From contig JAIRNP010000115.1 of NCBI GenBank assembly GCA_031258005.1, positions 1 through 41,975 on the forward strand: a stretch of 41,975 bases of DNA, given 5' to 3'. A program made the position numbers and the translations under genes. Source of the DNA: Treponema sp. GTDB lineage: Bacteria > Spirochaetota > Spirochaetia > Treponematales > Breznakiellaceae. Shown piece after piece: positions 8,617 through 16,544 of this stretch. A model generated the notes under the pieces. The model made no database searches. It saw nothing but the letters and a program-made list of their open reading frames with translations, and was not told the DNA's origin. The first letter of the stretch is position 1. Every line of letters begins with the position of its first letter.

Positions 8617-10458
8617 ATGAAAACGCAAACTATCCGTATCGGCGGTATGACCTGTATAAACTGCCAAAACCGGATTGAAAAAACCCTGAAAAGCGCCGTC
8701 GGCGTGGAGGACGCCCAGGTACGTTTCAATACCGGGACGGCTGCGGTTACCTACAACGCCTCGGTGATTACATTTAACGAGATTAAGGCGGCTATTGAAA
8801 GACTGGACTATAAGGTTTTGGAAGAAAAGGAAAAAACGCCGGTTTCGGAGATTATCGGGACGGTGGTGATTATTCTTTCTCTCTATGTGCTTTTACGGGG
8901 TTTGGGGATTAGTACCCTGACTTCGGCTTTCCCGCTGGCAGAGGCAGGTATGAGCTATGGCATGGTATTTGTCATCGGGCTTATTACTTCGGTACACTGC
9001 CTGGCTATGTGCGGGGGGATTAACCTGTCCCAATGTATCCCCTCCGCTGTCGTTACGCCGGAATCAGGAAAACGGTGGCAGACGCTGTTTCCTTCAACTC
9101 TTTACAATGCGGGCCGGGTCATTTCCTATACTACCCTGGGCGCTATTGTCGGGGCCTTGGGTTCGGTGATTACCGTGTCGGGGCGGTTTCAGGGTATCGT
9201 GCAGTTATTGGCGGGGGTTTTCATGGTGATCATGGGGATCAATATGCTGGGTATTTTTCCGGCTCTGCGCCGCTTTAACCTAGGTATGCCGAAAATTTTT
9301 GCCCGGAAAATTGACGAACAAAAGGCCGGAAACAGAAGCCCCCTCTGTATCGGCCTTCTCAACGGGCTTATGCCCTGCGGCCCCTTGCAGGCAATGCAGC
9401 TTTACGCCCTTTCCACAGGCAGCCCTGTTGCCGGGGGGATTTCCATGTTTCTTTTCAGCATGGGGACGGTTCCCCTGATGTTCGGCCTTGGGGCTTTGAG
9501 TTCTGCCTTGAGTAAGAGATTTACCCATAGGGTGATGACGATTGGGGCGATTCTGGTAACGGTAATGGGGATGACCATGTTCACCTACGGATGGGGGCTT
9601 TCGGGATTTAGCTTTGATTTTATTGACCGGGCTGTCGCCGCTCTAAGACCCTTTACTTCAAATACCACAGGGACAGGAGAAGGAGCCTTTACACCGGTAA
9701 TTGAAAATGGCGTCCAGATTGTCAACTCCACCTTGAGCGGGGGACGGTATCCGGCAATAACGGTACAGCAGGGTATTCCGGTAAAATGGACAATTAACGC
9801 CCCCCAGGGAAGCATCAACGGCTGTAACAACCGTATGATCATCCGGGAATATGGTATTGAATACCGGTTTAAGCCGGGGGAAAACGTGATCGAATTTACC
9901 CCTGAAGGGACGGGAAAATTCTCCTATTCCTGCTGGATGGGCATGATCCGCAGTTCTATTACGGTAGTCGCTGAAGGTGAGAACCTTGCCGATGTAAAGG
10001 AACCGAGTTTAGAGCCAACGCCGGCGGGGGTTGCCATACCTACGGATAAGATCGGCCTTGCGGAAATAGCGGATAATTTCCAGACCGTACACATAAACCT
10101 GCGGGATGACGGTATAGACCCGGCGATCATGGTCGTACAGCGGGGCGTTCCGGCCCTGTGGACGATCAATAACAATTCCAGTGATCCGGGGAACAGCCGC
10201 CTCATCTTCCCTGGGTATTACACCCAGGTTGACATGGAAATAGGGGACAATGTTATTCAGTTTATGCCGGTAGAGGATTTCGATTTTTCCACCGCCGACA
10301 ACGTGTTTTACGGGTATGTGAAAGTGGCGGATGATTTGAATACCATTGATACCGAGGCAATAAAGGCGGAAGTTTCCAATTTTGAAACCCGGATCTATCC
10401 TGAAGCGTATTTTGAGGCCCAAGCCCCGGGTAGGTGCTGCGGCGGTGCAGGAACATGA
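8617..10458 (+). CDS. HMA-domain / sulfite-exporter TauE-SafE-like membrane protein / C-terminal cupredoxin-like domains (metal handling)
   Basis: N-terminal IGGMTCINCQNRIEK (HMA CxxC); membrane domain with HCLAMCGGINLSQ and GLLNGLMPCGPLQAMQLYALSTGS; two beta-rich cupredoxin-like segments; C-terminal GRCCGGAGT. Confidence 0.85.
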   Translation: MKTQTIRIGGMTCINCQNRIEKTLKSAVGVEDAQVRFNTGTAAVTYNASVITFNEIKAAIERLDYKVLEEKEKTPVSEIIGTVVIILSLYVLLRGLGISTLTSAFPLAEAGMSYGMVFVIGLITSVHCLAMCGGINLSQCIPSAVVTPESGKRWQTLFPSTLYNAGRVISYTTLGAIVGALGSVITVSGRFQGIVQLLAGVFMVIMGINMLGIFPALRRFNLGMPKIFARKIDEQKAGNRSPLCIGLLNGLMPCGPLQAMQLYALSTGSPVAGGISMFLFSMGTVPLMFGLGALSSALSKRFTHRVMTIGAILVTVMGMTMFTYGWGLSGFSFDFIDRAVAALRPFTSNTTGTGEGAFTPVIENGVQIVNSTLSGGRYPAITVQQGIPVKWTINAPQGSINGCNNRMIIREYGIEYRFKPGENVIEFTPEGTGKFSYSCWMGMIRSSITVVAEGENLADVKEPSLEPTPAGVAIPTDKIGLAEIADNFQTVHINLRDDGIDPAIMVVQRGVPALWTINNNSSDPGNSRLIFPGYYTQVDMEIGDNVIQFMPVEDFDFSTADNVFYGYVKVADDLNTIDTEAIKAEVSNFETRIYPEAYFEAQAPGRCCGGAGT

Positions 10459-10539
10459 TACAAAAAAATCAATTTTTTGAATTATCATAATTTTGACACA
10501 ATCCTTCGGTATATTGGGGTAACAAAAGGAGGTGAAAAA

Positions 10540-10644
10540 ATGGGATTTTTATTAAGCCATTGGCATTGCATTGTTCCGGCTGTCGCCATTGTTATCGTCA
10601 TGTTCTTACAAGGCCGGGGCAAGAAAAAACCGGACGCCGAATAA
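10540..10644 (+). CDS. Tiny membrane protein (34 aa) MGFLLSHWHCIVPAVAIVIVMFLQGRGKKKPDAE
   Basis: RBS aaaggaggtg directly upstream of ATG, single TM helix; below the supplied ORF-track length cutoff. Confidence 0.55.
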   Translation: MGFLLSHWHCIVPAVAIVIVMFLQGRGKKKPDAE

Positions 10645-10698
10645 AAAACAGAGTCCTGACACCATTTTGTGTTATGAGTATTTTATGGAGGAAACAAC

Positions 10699-10839
10699 AT
10701 GGAAAATGTGATTGCCCTTGTCCTGGTAATTCTGTTGTTGGCGGGTATTTTGTTATTCGCCAAAAAGTTCCTCAAGCCGCCTAAAGGCCCATTGCCTGAT
10801 TGCTGCGGCCCCAGAGGAAACCGGGATATTGAAGTGTAA
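10699..10839 (+). CDS. Tiny membrane protein (46 aa) MENVIALVLVILLLAGILLFAKKFLKPPKGPLPDCCGPRGNRDIEV
   Basis: RBS tggagg, one TM helix, C-terminal CCGP; below the ORF-track cutoff. Confidence 0.55.
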   Translation: MENVIALVLVILLLAGILLFAKKFLKPPKGPLPDCCGPRGNRDIEV

Positions 10840-10863
10840 CGCGCCGTTGGCGTTGACTATTTT

Positions 10864-10895
10864 GTCGCGCCCCACGTGGGTGCGTGGACTGAAAT
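10864..10895 (+). repeat. Solitary sequence resembling a type I-C CRISPR repeat (32 nt)
   Basis: GTCGCGCCCCACGTGGGTGCGTGGACTGAAAT matches the recalled I-C repeat form GTCGCGCCCCGCACGGGCGCGTGGATTGAAAC at 26/32 positions, with the same GCGCCC-5nt-GGGYGC hairpin and a tGAAAY tail. No second copy nearby. Confidence 0.6.
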
Positions 10896-10909
10896 AAATA
10901 TGAGGAAAC

Positions 10910-11395
10910 ATGAAAACCTGTTTGGGGAAAGCCGGAGTTTTACTGGCAGCAGCCCTCATGCTGGCAGGGGCCGGCCATGCCTATGGGCAAACCCCTCAGC
11001 AGAATGTGGTAAAGCGCGCGATTGCCGACCGGGACTTGGTGATTCAAATTGCGGAGATAAGTGAGAATGCCCTCTTTTATCCGGTTGATATTGAGGGAAC
11101 CCGGCTTGAGGTCCTGGCGGTAAAGGCTCCGGACGGAACGATCCGCACGGCTTTTAACACCTGTCAGGTGTGCTATGCTTCAGGCCGGGGCTTTTACAAG
11201 CAGCAAGGCTCGGTGCTGGTGTGCCAGAACTGCGGCAACCGCTTCCGCATGAGTCAGGTAGGGCTGCGTGCCGGTGGCTGCAATCCGGTTCCGATTTTTC
11301 CCGCTAACAAGCAGGTAACGGACACGACCATTACCATTTCAAAGGAATTCCTCAAGGAAGCCAAGGGTATTTTCACCCGTTGGCGGCGAGGATAG
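10910..11395 (+). CDS. DUF2318-like periplasmic metal/iron-sulfur-type protein
   Basis: Signal peptide MKTCLGKAGVLLAAALMLAGAGHAYG; FNTCQVCYASGRGFYKQQGSVLVCQNCGNRF with paired CxxC motifs followed by GGCNPVPI. Confidence 0.75.
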   Translation: MKTCLGKAGVLLAAALMLAGAGHAYGQTPQQNVVKRAIADRDLVIQIAEISENALFYPVDIEGTRLEVLAVKAPDGTIRTAFNTCQVCYASGRGFYKQQGSVLVCQNCGNRFRMSQVGLRAGGCNPVPIFPANKQVTDTTITISKEFLKEAKGIFTRWRRG

Positions 11396-11533
11396 GGTAA
11401 GCTGGTAATCACCAGCGGCGTTTAGAAGCGTACAATTCAGGTTCGGAACTTTGCAATAGTAGTTTAGAACTCCACTATCTATGATTCTTTGAGCGTATTA
11501 TTTTGTAATGACCTAACATAAGGAGCAGAAACA

Positions 11534-14233
11534 ATGCAAAATGAAACCCTAAGCTTAGGCGGGATGACCTGCGCTGCCTGTGCAGGCCGGATTGAAAAGA
11601 CGGTGCGGAAAATCCAGGGGGTGAGCGCCGCTTCGGTGAACTTGGCGAGCGAAAAACTCTTTGTGGAGTACGCGGACGCCCAAACCCTTACCAGTATTAA
11701 GGACGCGGTAGTAAAGATCGGCTATCAGGTTTTGGACAAACCCCATGGCAGCGCCGTTACTATTCCCATAGGCGGCATGACCTGCGCGGCTTGTTCCGCC
11801 CGGGTGGAAAAAGCCCTGAACAAACTGGAAGGGATAGAAACCGCAACGGTGAACCTTGCCACGGAAAAGGCTACGGTACTCTATAACCCCCAGGTAATCA
11901 GGATTTCCGCTATTAAAGAGGCGATTGAAAAAGCCGGGTACAAGGCTTTGGATTTTTCCAAAAACGGCGCGGTGGACGAAGATAAACTGCGAAAAGAAAA
12001 AGAAATAAGAGTCCTCTGGACAAAATTCATCGTGGCCGCCTCTTTCGGGCTTCCCCTGCTCTATATCGCTATGGTTCCCATGATAAAGGTCTTCACCCTG
12101 CCCTTTCCCAAGGCGTTGGCCCCGATGAACTTCCCGCTGCTCTATGCCCTTGCGGAACTGCTGCTGGTTATTCCCATCATCATTGCAGGCAACCGGTTTT
12201 ATACCGTAGGTTTCAAGAACCTTCTGCACCGGAGCCCCAACATGGACTCCCTCATCGCCATTGGGACTACGGCCGCGGTACTCTACAGTCTCTACAACGT
12301 GTGGCAAATAGCCGGGGGGAATTTCAAGGCGGTGGACGCGCTTTATTTCGAGACCGCCGGGGTGATTATCGCGCTCATCCTTTTGGGTAAGTCTTTGGAA
12401 GCGGTGTCCAAGGGCCGCACCAGCGAGGCCATCAAGAAACTCATGGGTCTTGCGCCAAAGACGGCTATCATCATTGAGAACGGCGCGGAAAAAGAAATCC
12501 CTATTGACGAGGTGATCCCCGGCGATAGTATTGTGGTGAAACCGGGCACCAAGATTCCGGTTGACGGCGTGGTTACCGAGGGGCATACGGCTATAGATGA
12601 ATCCATGCTTACCGGCGAGAGTATGCCGGTTGACAAGAAAGCGGGGGACAAAGTTTACGCCGCGACGATTAACAGCAACGGCGTTATTCGGTTTAGGGCC
12701 GAAAAAATCGGAAGCGATACCGCACTGGCGCAAATCATCAAGCTGGTGGAAGACGCGCAAGGCAGCAAAGCCCCGATAGCGCAGATGGCGGATATTGTGT
12801 CCGGCTACTTTGTGCCAATCGTGTGCCTCATCGCCCTTGTCGCGGGCGTCGTGTGGTTCGCGGCGGCTTCCGCCGGGCTTGTCGCCCTGCCGCCCGGAAA
12901 ACCGGCGCTTGAGTTCGCCCTCACCATCTTTATTTCCGTGCTGGTCATCGCCTGCCCCTGCGCTTTGGGGCTTGCCACGCCCACCGCGATTATGGTCGCC
13001 ACCGGCAAGGGCGCGGAGAACGGCATCCTGATTAAGGGCGGCGAGGCTCTGGAAACGACCCACAAGATACGGACCATCGTCTTTGACAAGACCGGAACCA
13101 TCACCGAAGGCAAGCCAAAGGTTACCGATGTGATAGTCTTGAAAGGGAAGAAGGGGGAAGTCGCGGCAACTTCGTTGCCGAACCCCTCGCTCCAGCCGCC
13201 TGCGGCGTCTTTCGCTACCCCCTCTGCGGGGGACACCCCCGCAACGCCCCCGCCGCTTTCTCCGAAAGATTACCTTTTCTGCCTTGCCGCTTCCGCCGAG
13301 AAGGGGTCGGAACACCCGCTGGGTCAGGCGATTGTACAAGGCGCGGAGGAACAGGGGCTGGAACTCTTTAGGGTGTCCCATTTTGAGGCCCTTACCGGCA
13401 GGGGTATTGAGGCGGAGATTAACGGGATAAAGGCGCTTGTCGGCAACCGCAAGCTCATGGACGAACGCGGCATAGACCTTGCGGAACTGGAAGCGGACTC
13501 GGACCGGCTCGCCGGAGAAGGAAAAACCCCTATGTATGCCGCCCTGGACGGAAAAATCGCGGGAATTGTGGCGGTTGCGGACGTGGTAAAACCCTCCAGC
13601 AAAGCGGCTATCGAAACGCTTCATAAGATGGGGATTGAAGTCGCCATGATAACCGGGGACAACAAAAAGACCGCCGCCGCTATCGCCAAACAGGTAGGGA
13701 TTGACCGGGTGCTTTCCGAAGTGCTGCCCCAGGACAAGTCCGCTGAGGTAAAGAAACTACAGGAAGCCGGCACGGAACCGTTGCGTAGAGAAAAGCGTAC
13801 GCTTTTCTCCCAAGCTACAAAACGCCCCCGGCGTTTTGTAGCCATGGTAGGGGACGGCATTAACGATGCCCCGGCGTTGGTACAGGCGGACATAGGCATT
13901 GCCATTGGAAGCGGTACCGATGTGGCAATGGAATCCGCCGACATTGTGCTTATGAGGAGCGACCTCTCGGATGTTCCCACGGCTATCAACTTAAGTAAGC
14001 GGACGATCCGCACTATCAAGCAAAATCTGTTCTGGGCCTTTGGCTATAACGTGCTGGGCATCCCCATTGCCGCGGGCCTTCTCTATCTTTTTGGCGGGCC
14101 GCTCCTCAATCCGATTTTTGCCGCCGCCGCCATGAGCATGAGTTCCGTATCGGTACTGACCAATGCCTTGCGGCTCAAGCGGTTTAAGGCTGTCCGGGAA
14201 ACTTCCCGGCCTGAAACTCTGGAAACTGCATGA
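11534..14233 (+). CDS. copA: Cu+-translocating P1B-type ATPase with two HMA domains and two in-frame insertions
   Basis: Two GMTCAAC motifs, [48 protein letters not shown]. Confidence 0.95.
13164..13243. repeat. Cluster of hairpin-forming inverted repeats inside the copA CDS (first insertion)
   Basis: CGGCAAC-TTC-GTTGCCG (13164-13180), GCCGC-CT-GCGGC (about 13195-13206), TGCGGGGG-ACA-CCCCCGCA (13225-13243). Confidence 0.7.
13788..13842. repeat. Two adjacent palindromes inside the copA CDS (second insertion)
   Basis: Perfect 22-bp palindrome GAGAAAAGCGTACGCTTTTCTC (13788-13809) and 13-bp stem GCTACAAAACGCC-CCC-GGCGTTTTGTAGC (13814-13842). Confidence 0.85.
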
Positions 14234-15308: not shown

Positions 15309-15337
15309 TTTACAAAGTTTTCTGAATGTAGTATGTT
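15309..15337 (+). promoter_or_regulatory. Predicted sigma70-type promoter (TTTACA - 17 bp - TATGTT)
   Basis: Read directly; spacing 17 nt; preceded by an A/T-rich tract. Confidence 0.5.
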
Positions 15338-15344
15338 AGTTATA

Positions 15345-15584
15345 GCTAATTAAGTTGCCTAGAGCTAACTACAATAAGCTGATGAGGATTTTTGCAGCAT
15401 TAATGGAATGATGCAAAATCTCGTTATAGGAAATTACCAGGGGATTGCTGCTACCTCTCTCGGCAATCCTCTGTGCCTCAGGCGGTAATTGGGTTATTTA
15501 AAAATATTGATGCTCTCCATTCTTTTTATCCGGAGAGATTCGGTTTCGTACGTCGTATAGAAACTGGGTCTCTCCGGGTTTTTC
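15345..15584 (+). ncRNA. Candidate structured RNA / 5' leader with terminator-antiterminator-like architecture
   Basis: Three successive stems: 15384-15400/15408-15422, 15432-15438/15484-15490 enclosing 15442-15448/15463-15469, and CCGGAGAGA (15530)/TCTCTCCGG (15569) followed by GTTTTT; competing CTCTCC at 15513. Confidence 0.5.
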
Positions 15585-15764
15585 ATGCTCCCCTGTACAA
15601 GCGCAGGGGGTGTCCAAGTCTCCCTGCCCCCATTTTTCTCTCTGTATGATCCTGGATTTACAGGCTACCGCTGATTACCATAGCATGGTACAATTAAAAT
15701 AAATAAGGGGGTTTCAAAATCTCAGATTTTAAACAAAGGCGATATCTATATTTAAGGAACGATC

Positions 15765-16544
15765 ATGAAATATAAGACCAAACTACTTGCGGAGAGGTTC
15801 ACTAAGATGCTTTCTCAATGGCCGGGGGTGGAATGTGTTTCCCTTAACGAGGCTGCCCGGGAGGATACCTTGGATCCCTATTTCGCCCTGATCCTAGACG
15901 TATTTTATGCAGGATCCATTCCGGAAGCAGCAGAACGGGGGCGCCTGTACGGGGAAGATGTGGCGGCCTTTGAGACTTCCGGCCGGACTGATAAGGATCG
16001 CTTCCTTATCGGAGGGCTTCCGATCAGACTGGAGTATAAATCTACCCAGCAAATCCAGACCCTGGTTTCCATGGTGTCTACCGACGCGGAGTCCTTCTGG
16101 ATTATCAAGGATTCAGGAACCTACGGGTTCTATAGATTGACCCAGGGGGATCTTCTGTTTTACCGGACCGATTGGATCCAGGACATACGCAAGCGGCTGC
16201 TCAACCTGGATGATAACTTTTGGGTGCAGATGCGGTATAGCTATCAATCCAAGATGGAGCATCTATTGAATGACCTGGGGGCGGCGTTTTTTCAGGAGGA
16301 TGATTTCAATTACCTCATCTCTTCTGCCCTCTTCATTAAAACCGCCTGCCTTACCCTGTTTTGTATCAATCATCAATTTGAGCCGTCCCATCGGGCCTAT
16401 TATAAACAGACCCTGGAACTCCCGATCTTACCCGAAGCCTTCCAGGTCCAGCTTGCCACCTTTTTGCGGGGGGATCCGGAAATAACCAATGAACGGAAAT
16501 ATTCCCTTGCTCAACGGATGGCCCGAAATATTGTCGCCTTGTAG
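15765..16544 (+). CDS. Conserved-looking cytosolic protein of unknown function (259 aa)
   Basis: Good ORF with coding-like composition; possible nucleotidyltransferase-like fold is only a guess. Confidence 0.7.
   Translation: MKYKTKLLAERFTKMLSQWPGVECVSLNEAAREDTLDPYFALILDVFYAGSIPEAAERGRLYGEDVAAFETSGRTDKDRFLIGGLPIRLEYKSTQQIQTLVSMVSTDAESFWIIKDSGTYGFYRLTQGDLLFYRTDWIQDIRKRLLNLDDNFWVQMRYSYQSKMEHLLNDLGAAFFQEDDFNYLISSALFIKTACLTLFCINHQFEPSHRAYYKQTLELPILPEAFQVQLATFLRGDPEITNERKYSLAQRMARNIVAL

Follow-up and report, generated by a model that had tools for sequence, protein, structure and literature searches.

Unrelated small RNAs (sRNAs) which spare iron are known from several phyla (PMC9410917). IsrR of staphylococci is an iron-repressed sRNA; it pairs with mRNAs for iron-containing enzymes at their Shine-Dalgarno regions (PMC9410917). 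The same source describes further systems: FsrA of Bacillus subtilis, an iron-sparing sRNA with a C-rich motif that binds the Shine-Dalgarno sequence and a need for FbpA, FbpB and FbpC; RyhB and PrrF of proteobacteria, which are made under iron starvation, repress Fe-S mRNAs, are controlled by Fur and depend on Hfq; and MrsI of Mycobacterium tuberculosis, with predicted IdeR control and a place in the iron-sparing response (PMC9410917). A 14-bp IdeR/DtxR consensus, TTAGGNNNNCCTAA, has also been proposed (PMC8464063). In the literature searched, no description of such an RNA in spirochaetes was found.

Here we describe a candidate from the window, by which we mean the whole stretch of Treponema sp. 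DNA analysed, 41,975 nucleotides in length. The RNA resembles IsrR in having several stem-loops, an intrinsic terminator, and conserved C-rich regions that are single-stranded, both within loops and between stems (PMC9410917). It differs from IsrR in belonging to another phylum, in having an IdeR/DtxR-like box as opposed to Fur control, and in forming, in many cases, the 3' end of a flavodoxin transcript where IsrR is a free gene; no Rfam match links the two. With FsrA it shares a C-rich segment directed at the Shine-Dalgarno sequence, and no sequence relation between them is recorded. With RyhB and PrrF, as described there, it would share the repression of Fe-S mRNAs at low iron that we propose below, although neither has an Rfam match in the window. 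MrsI, compared by its description in the same source, would have iron sparing and predicted IdeR control in common with the RNA but comes from another phylum. As sequence families, RyhB, FsrA and IsrR gave no match, a negative which extends to those of them that Rfam 15 contains. The box of the RNA, TTAG-N6-CTAA, resembles the IdeR/DtxR consensus (PMC8464063), a likeness judged by sequence. The best reading of these comparisons is that the RNA works by analogy with FsrA, IsrR and RyhB, and nothing indicates common ancestry.

Structure and conservation of the RNA

The features of the locus are collected in Table 1. The core of the RNA is a junction in which P1 (AATTACC/GGTAATT) encloses P2, with its apical loop, and the small P3; a linear stretch and the terminator hairpin, CCGGAGAGA...TCTCTCCGG-GTTTTT, follow. 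The fold of 15344-15586 has an energy of -83.6 kcal/mol, against -59.1 +/- 4.4 for shuffled sequences (z = -5.56; 0 of 200 shuffles as good). The species-variable 5' hairpin is paired otherwise in the minimum-energy fold of the window sequence alone.

Table 1. Features of the RNA locus in the window
Feature	Position	Strand	Basis or remark
Sigma-70-like promoter, TTTACA-17-TATGTT	15309..15337	+	Sequence; TTTACA and TATGTT kept across the genus of the window
Iron-box-like operator TTAGTTATAGCTAA (TTAG-N6-CTAA)	15336..15349	+	Overlaps the -10 and the inferred start at ~15344
Possible second, weaker box TTGCCTAGAGCTAA	15355..15368	+	19 bp further on; 2 mismatches to TTAG-N6-CTAA
Predicted small RNA transcript, ~240 nt	15344..15583	+	5' end placed by the promoter, 3' end by the terminator
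5' hairpin GATTTTTGCA/TGCAAAATC, species-variable	15387..15420	+	Genus alignment, compensatory changes by eye; outside the covariance model
P1 (15432-15438 with 15484-15490) enclosing P2 (15439-15473) and P3 (15475-15483)	15432..15490	+	Covariation, helices 1-3
Seed 1, ACCUCUCUC, in the P2 apical loop; complement of GAGAGAGGU at ribosome-binding sites	15453..15461	+	Kept in nearly all homologs
Unpaired conserved GGGUUAUUUAAAAAUA	15491..15506	+	Near-invariant in the genus and in L010-L012; partly retained further out
Seed 2, CUCUCCAUUC; complementary to GAAUGGAGAG where the hydN-like gene starts	15513..15522	+	Sequence match
Intrinsic terminator: hairpin enclosing an inner TACGTCGTA hairpin, followed by a U-rich tail	15528..15583	+	Helix 4: 20/23 pairs changed on both sides
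Gene, 259 aa	15765-16544	+	Conserved within the genus immediately behind the RNA and ahead of a 583-aa protein

Counted as motifs alone, promoter-like matches (2 found, 2.6 expected) and terminator-like matches (3 found, 3.6 expected) stand at chance level in the region. The promoter and terminator are instead taken as real because of their conservation and covariation. Several distant homologs, and flavodoxin promoters too, have TTTACA or TTGACA together with TATGTT. As expected of a trans-acting sRNA, the RNA appears from its sequence to be a discrete unit: in the window it has a promoter and a terminator of its own, both of which are kept in the genus.

Two-sided compensatory change was found in 42 of 45 pairs among 41 covariance-model matches, which include two partial reverse-strand matches to the palindromic terminator, and none of 500 shuffles scored as high. 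In the same alignment standard pairs occupy 91.5% of cells, compared with 70.4% after shuffling and 32-48% in slid controls; being fitted to the covariance model, this alignment somewhat favours the structure. Aligned with MAFFT, 12 sequences show two-sided changes at 18 pairs. Conservation is highest at unpaired bases, namely ACCUCUCUC in the P2 loop and CUCUCCAUUC ahead of the terminator. Seed 1 has a mean unpaired probability of 0.86 in the window and is predicted to be open in 10 of 11 scored sequences (0.85-0.99), while seed 2, at 0.48 in the window, is about half open in prediction. The conserved GGGUUAUUUAAAAAUA (15491-15506) has no evident pairing partner and could bind a protein. A small open reading frame within the RNA was considered and rejected, the frames seen by eye being broken by indels between species.

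Searching at the DNA level located the RNA region in most genomes of the same genus and in three further genera. A covariance model built from 12 sequences then detected it within one family, apparently Breznakiellaceae, where 43 of 200 genomes and 19 of 57 genera have it; in a phylum sample of 393 genomes it occurs only within that family. Scanning GTDB genomes for a sequence pattern gave 14 MAGs; almost all bear the name 'Treponema sp.', and they are taken as termite-gut genomes. A single match in Actinomycetota was taken as chance, a rough prior estimate having allowed for about four chance matches. One genome carries two copies of the RNA, one linked to flavodoxin and one free. In genus g47, weak second copies (L049, L053) lie 3' of a membrane-protein-like gene; they keep the ACCUCUCUCGG loop and lack CUCUCCAUUC.

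No Rfam 15 family matches the window at its gathering score, and up to an E-value of 10 there are only chance-level matches, none of them relevant. A scan for tRNA and tmRNA found none in the window, and RF00013 (6S) has no match there. The initial annotation had described an uncharacterised structured RNA, which it could match to no tmRNA, 6S, SRP, RNase P or riboswitch consensus, with a TTTACA-17-TATGTT promoter at 15309-15337 and strong stems, the third terminator-like; it had proposed an Rfam scan and a covariance analysis of homologs as checks. Both checks bear it out: the promoter and hairpins were placed correctly, the scans for known families are empty, and the helices covary strongly. 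By comparative sequence analysis the RNA thus appears to represent a new, well-supported structured family.

Putative iron box and neighbouring genes

The spacing of the two putative boxes in the window recurs elsewhere, since tandem boxes 19 bp apart also precede several flavodoxin genes. Searched with up to 3 mismatches, ATGTTAGTTATAGCTAATTA has 20 sites in 11 genomes of the same genus. Except for two which are likely due to chance (L089, L090), every site is at the RNA or just upstream of a flavodoxin gene. In other genera, all 12 flavodoxin promoters examined have one or two boxes with at most 1 mismatch, against a background of about 0.55 per kb.

The position of the RNA varies between genera. 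In the genus of the window and several others it stands alone, with its own promoter and box. In many genera it lies immediately 3' of a flavodoxin gene (L030, L031, L035, L038-L041, L046, L050, L051 and L054) or of a flavodoxin-DUF3793 pair (L010, L012 and L047), and several flavodoxin-linked copies leave no space for a separate promoter. It also follows feoB at two loci, identified by Pfam in L008 and by sequence in L029. The DUF3793 gene (L010:783-1358, and likewise in L012 and L047) sits between flavodoxin and the RNA. Its occurrence there in several genera suggests a role for DUF3793 in the low-iron response. The literature searched held nothing on DUF3793 with flavodoxin, nor on a UTR-derived sRNA connected with iron and flavodoxin. 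Upstream of the RNA in the window (8617-14233, + strand) there is a metal-related cluster consisting of an HMA-DsbD-like fusion, an FtrD-like protein and a heavy-metal P-type ATPase.

Candidate targets

Targets were sought through pattern searches and in genome stretches. The pattern GAGAGAGGT-N2-9-ATG was searched before genes of 50 codons or more, both in 14 genomes with the RNA from outside the genus and in 14 relatives lacking it. The latter may have divergent copies, but none was detected at E-values up to 1. Fe-S proteins account for 11 of the 17 genes found in the RNA-carrying genomes: a 56-aa ferredoxin (5 genomes), NifU/IscU-like proteins (2), a HydN-like protein, CO dehydrogenase, a thioredoxin-like [2Fe-2S] subunit and a DUF362 protein with Fer4. 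In the genomes lacking the RNA they account for 1 of 10 entries, two of which represent one duplicated gene; the one Fe-S entry is a ferredoxin, in G016. There is thus an excess of complementarity to the ribosome-binding sites of iron proteins where the RNA is present (11/17 against 1/10; Fisher p = 0.007 by gene). With each distinct family entered once, the contrast is 6/12 against 1/9 (p = 0.08), and this is the cautious figure because orthologs are not independent. Set against an assumed Fe-S background of 5%, the family count has a probability of about 1e-5.

The second seed points to a HydN-like 4Fe-4S protein. Exact complements of CUCUCCAUUC number 2-11 per genome in the same genus, the RNA itself counted, and in seven of these genomes a 12-nt match, GAATGGAGAGCA, lies at the start codon of the hydN-like gene, the ribosome-binding site of which also has AGAGGT, matching the loop. 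In two other genomes of the genus the hydN-like site is different or not resolved. The G160 ortholog has both motifs, GAGAGAGGT (a 9-nt loop match) and AATGGAGA, and that of G167 has AGAGAGGAG and GGAGAGG. In 1.6 Mb of G167 the hydN-like gene ranks 8th of 1356 by duplex energy; a class-wide test of Fe-S genes in the same sequence gave a non-significant p = 0.08 with only 12 such genes, and shuffled seeds gave similar p values. Seed 2 also matches the leader of V-type ATPase subunit I in six genomes. In the genus of the window, GAGAGAGGT precedes mostly non-Fe-S genes (mntP, rplW, pyrE and others). It lies before mntP-like genes, assigned by sequence, in two of three genomes (L182, L185), a possible link to manganese.

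Alternative explanations

The initial annotation had interpreted the locus as a cis-acting leader controlling the gene at 15765 through a switch between terminator and antiterminator, in which CTCTCC (15513-15518) pairs with a GGAGAG of the terminator. This pairing exists in the window and in several sequences of the same genus, and it is not kept across homologs: 5 of 6 pairs can form in most, 3 of 6 in L041 (G167) and L047, and 2 of 6 in L055. In other genera the terminator arm varies with compensation inside the terminator itself, and CTCTCC hardly changes, so that no conserved mutually exclusive pairing of the riboswitch or antiterminator kind was found. CTCTCC appears better explained, from its sequence, as a pairing site for target mRNAs. 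The gene at 15765 does adjoin the RNA in some genomes of the genus, yet the RNA ends about 180 bases upstream of it, its terminator closing a unit of ~240 nt, and elsewhere different genes follow, often on the opposite strand. Neither this 259-aa gene product nor the 583-aa protein after it matches Pfam or NCBIfam. Where the RNA lies 3' of flavodoxin, it cannot be the leader of that same gene. A switch acting on the gene at 15765 is therefore very unlikely. Still less probable is a lineage-specific 6S RNA or other housekeeping RNA. The RNA is conserved, structured and intergenic, and the Rfam 6S model finds no 6S RNA in its genome, but it is not built as a single long bubble helix, it occurs in only a third of the genera of the family, its operator and linkage are specific to iron, and Rfam offers no match.

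A cis-acting 3' UTR element, serving termination or stability of iron-regulated transcripts and having no action in trans, would account for the strong terminator at the end of the RNA and its frequent position directly after flavodoxin or DUF3793 genes. It accounts poorly for the stand-alone copies with their own promoter and the same box, in the genus of the window and several others, and for the best-conserved bases being unpaired ones that match the ribosome-binding sites of other genes; we think it unlikely. An iron-regulated sRNA with another main role, such as regulation of non-Fe-S targets (mntP or the V-ATPase, for example) or titration of a protein, seems similarly improbable. The mntP and V-ATPase subunit I matches and the otherwise unexplained conservation of GGGUUAUUUAAAAAUA speak for such a role, but across other genera the sites are mostly at Fe-S genes, and the V-ATPase site lies within an upstream reading frame, so that its conservation may be coding.

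Proposed mechanism and significance

We consider it likely that the RNA is a trans-acting sRNA of an iron-sparing response. Its structure is conserved, it shares an operator with flavodoxin genes, it is linked to iron genes, and sites complementary to it lie at Fe-S genes. From these observations we infer that the RNA is expressed in an iron-dependent manner. It is probably made under iron shortage together with the iron-free flavodoxin, and probably prevents iron-using proteins, ferredoxin among them, from being translated. Ample iron would keep a repressor, most likely a sensor of the IdeR/DtxR type, on TTAG-N6-CTAA over the -10 element, blocking transcription; when iron is scarce, the RNA would be transcribed. 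In the genus of the window it would come from its own promoter under an operator common to the flavodoxin gene, and in other genera it would form the 3' end of the flavodoxin or flavodoxin-DUF3793 transcript. The loop ACCUCUCUC and the linear CUCUCCAUUC may then pair with the Shine-Dalgarno and start-codon regions of Fe-S mRNAs and stop the translation of ferredoxin, HydN-like and NifU/IscU-like proteins, CO dehydrogenase and the [2Fe-2S] subunit. Flavodoxin would replace ferredoxin in the meantime.

We further lean towards regarding the RNA as a new family which couples the two halves of the ferredoxin-flavodoxin swap in one transcript, the 3' end of the flavodoxin mRNA silencing Fe-S mRNAs in many spirochaete genera, with the RNA having elsewhere turned into, or stayed, a separate gene controlled through the same iron box. 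The family would also provide an evolutionary series between an sRNA embedded in an mRNA, at the flavodoxin 3' end, and a free one. The spirochaetes which carry it are abundant gut symbionts, and since its predicted targets include ferredoxin, CO dehydrogenase and a HydN-like protein, rationing of iron by such an RNA could shape their metabolism.
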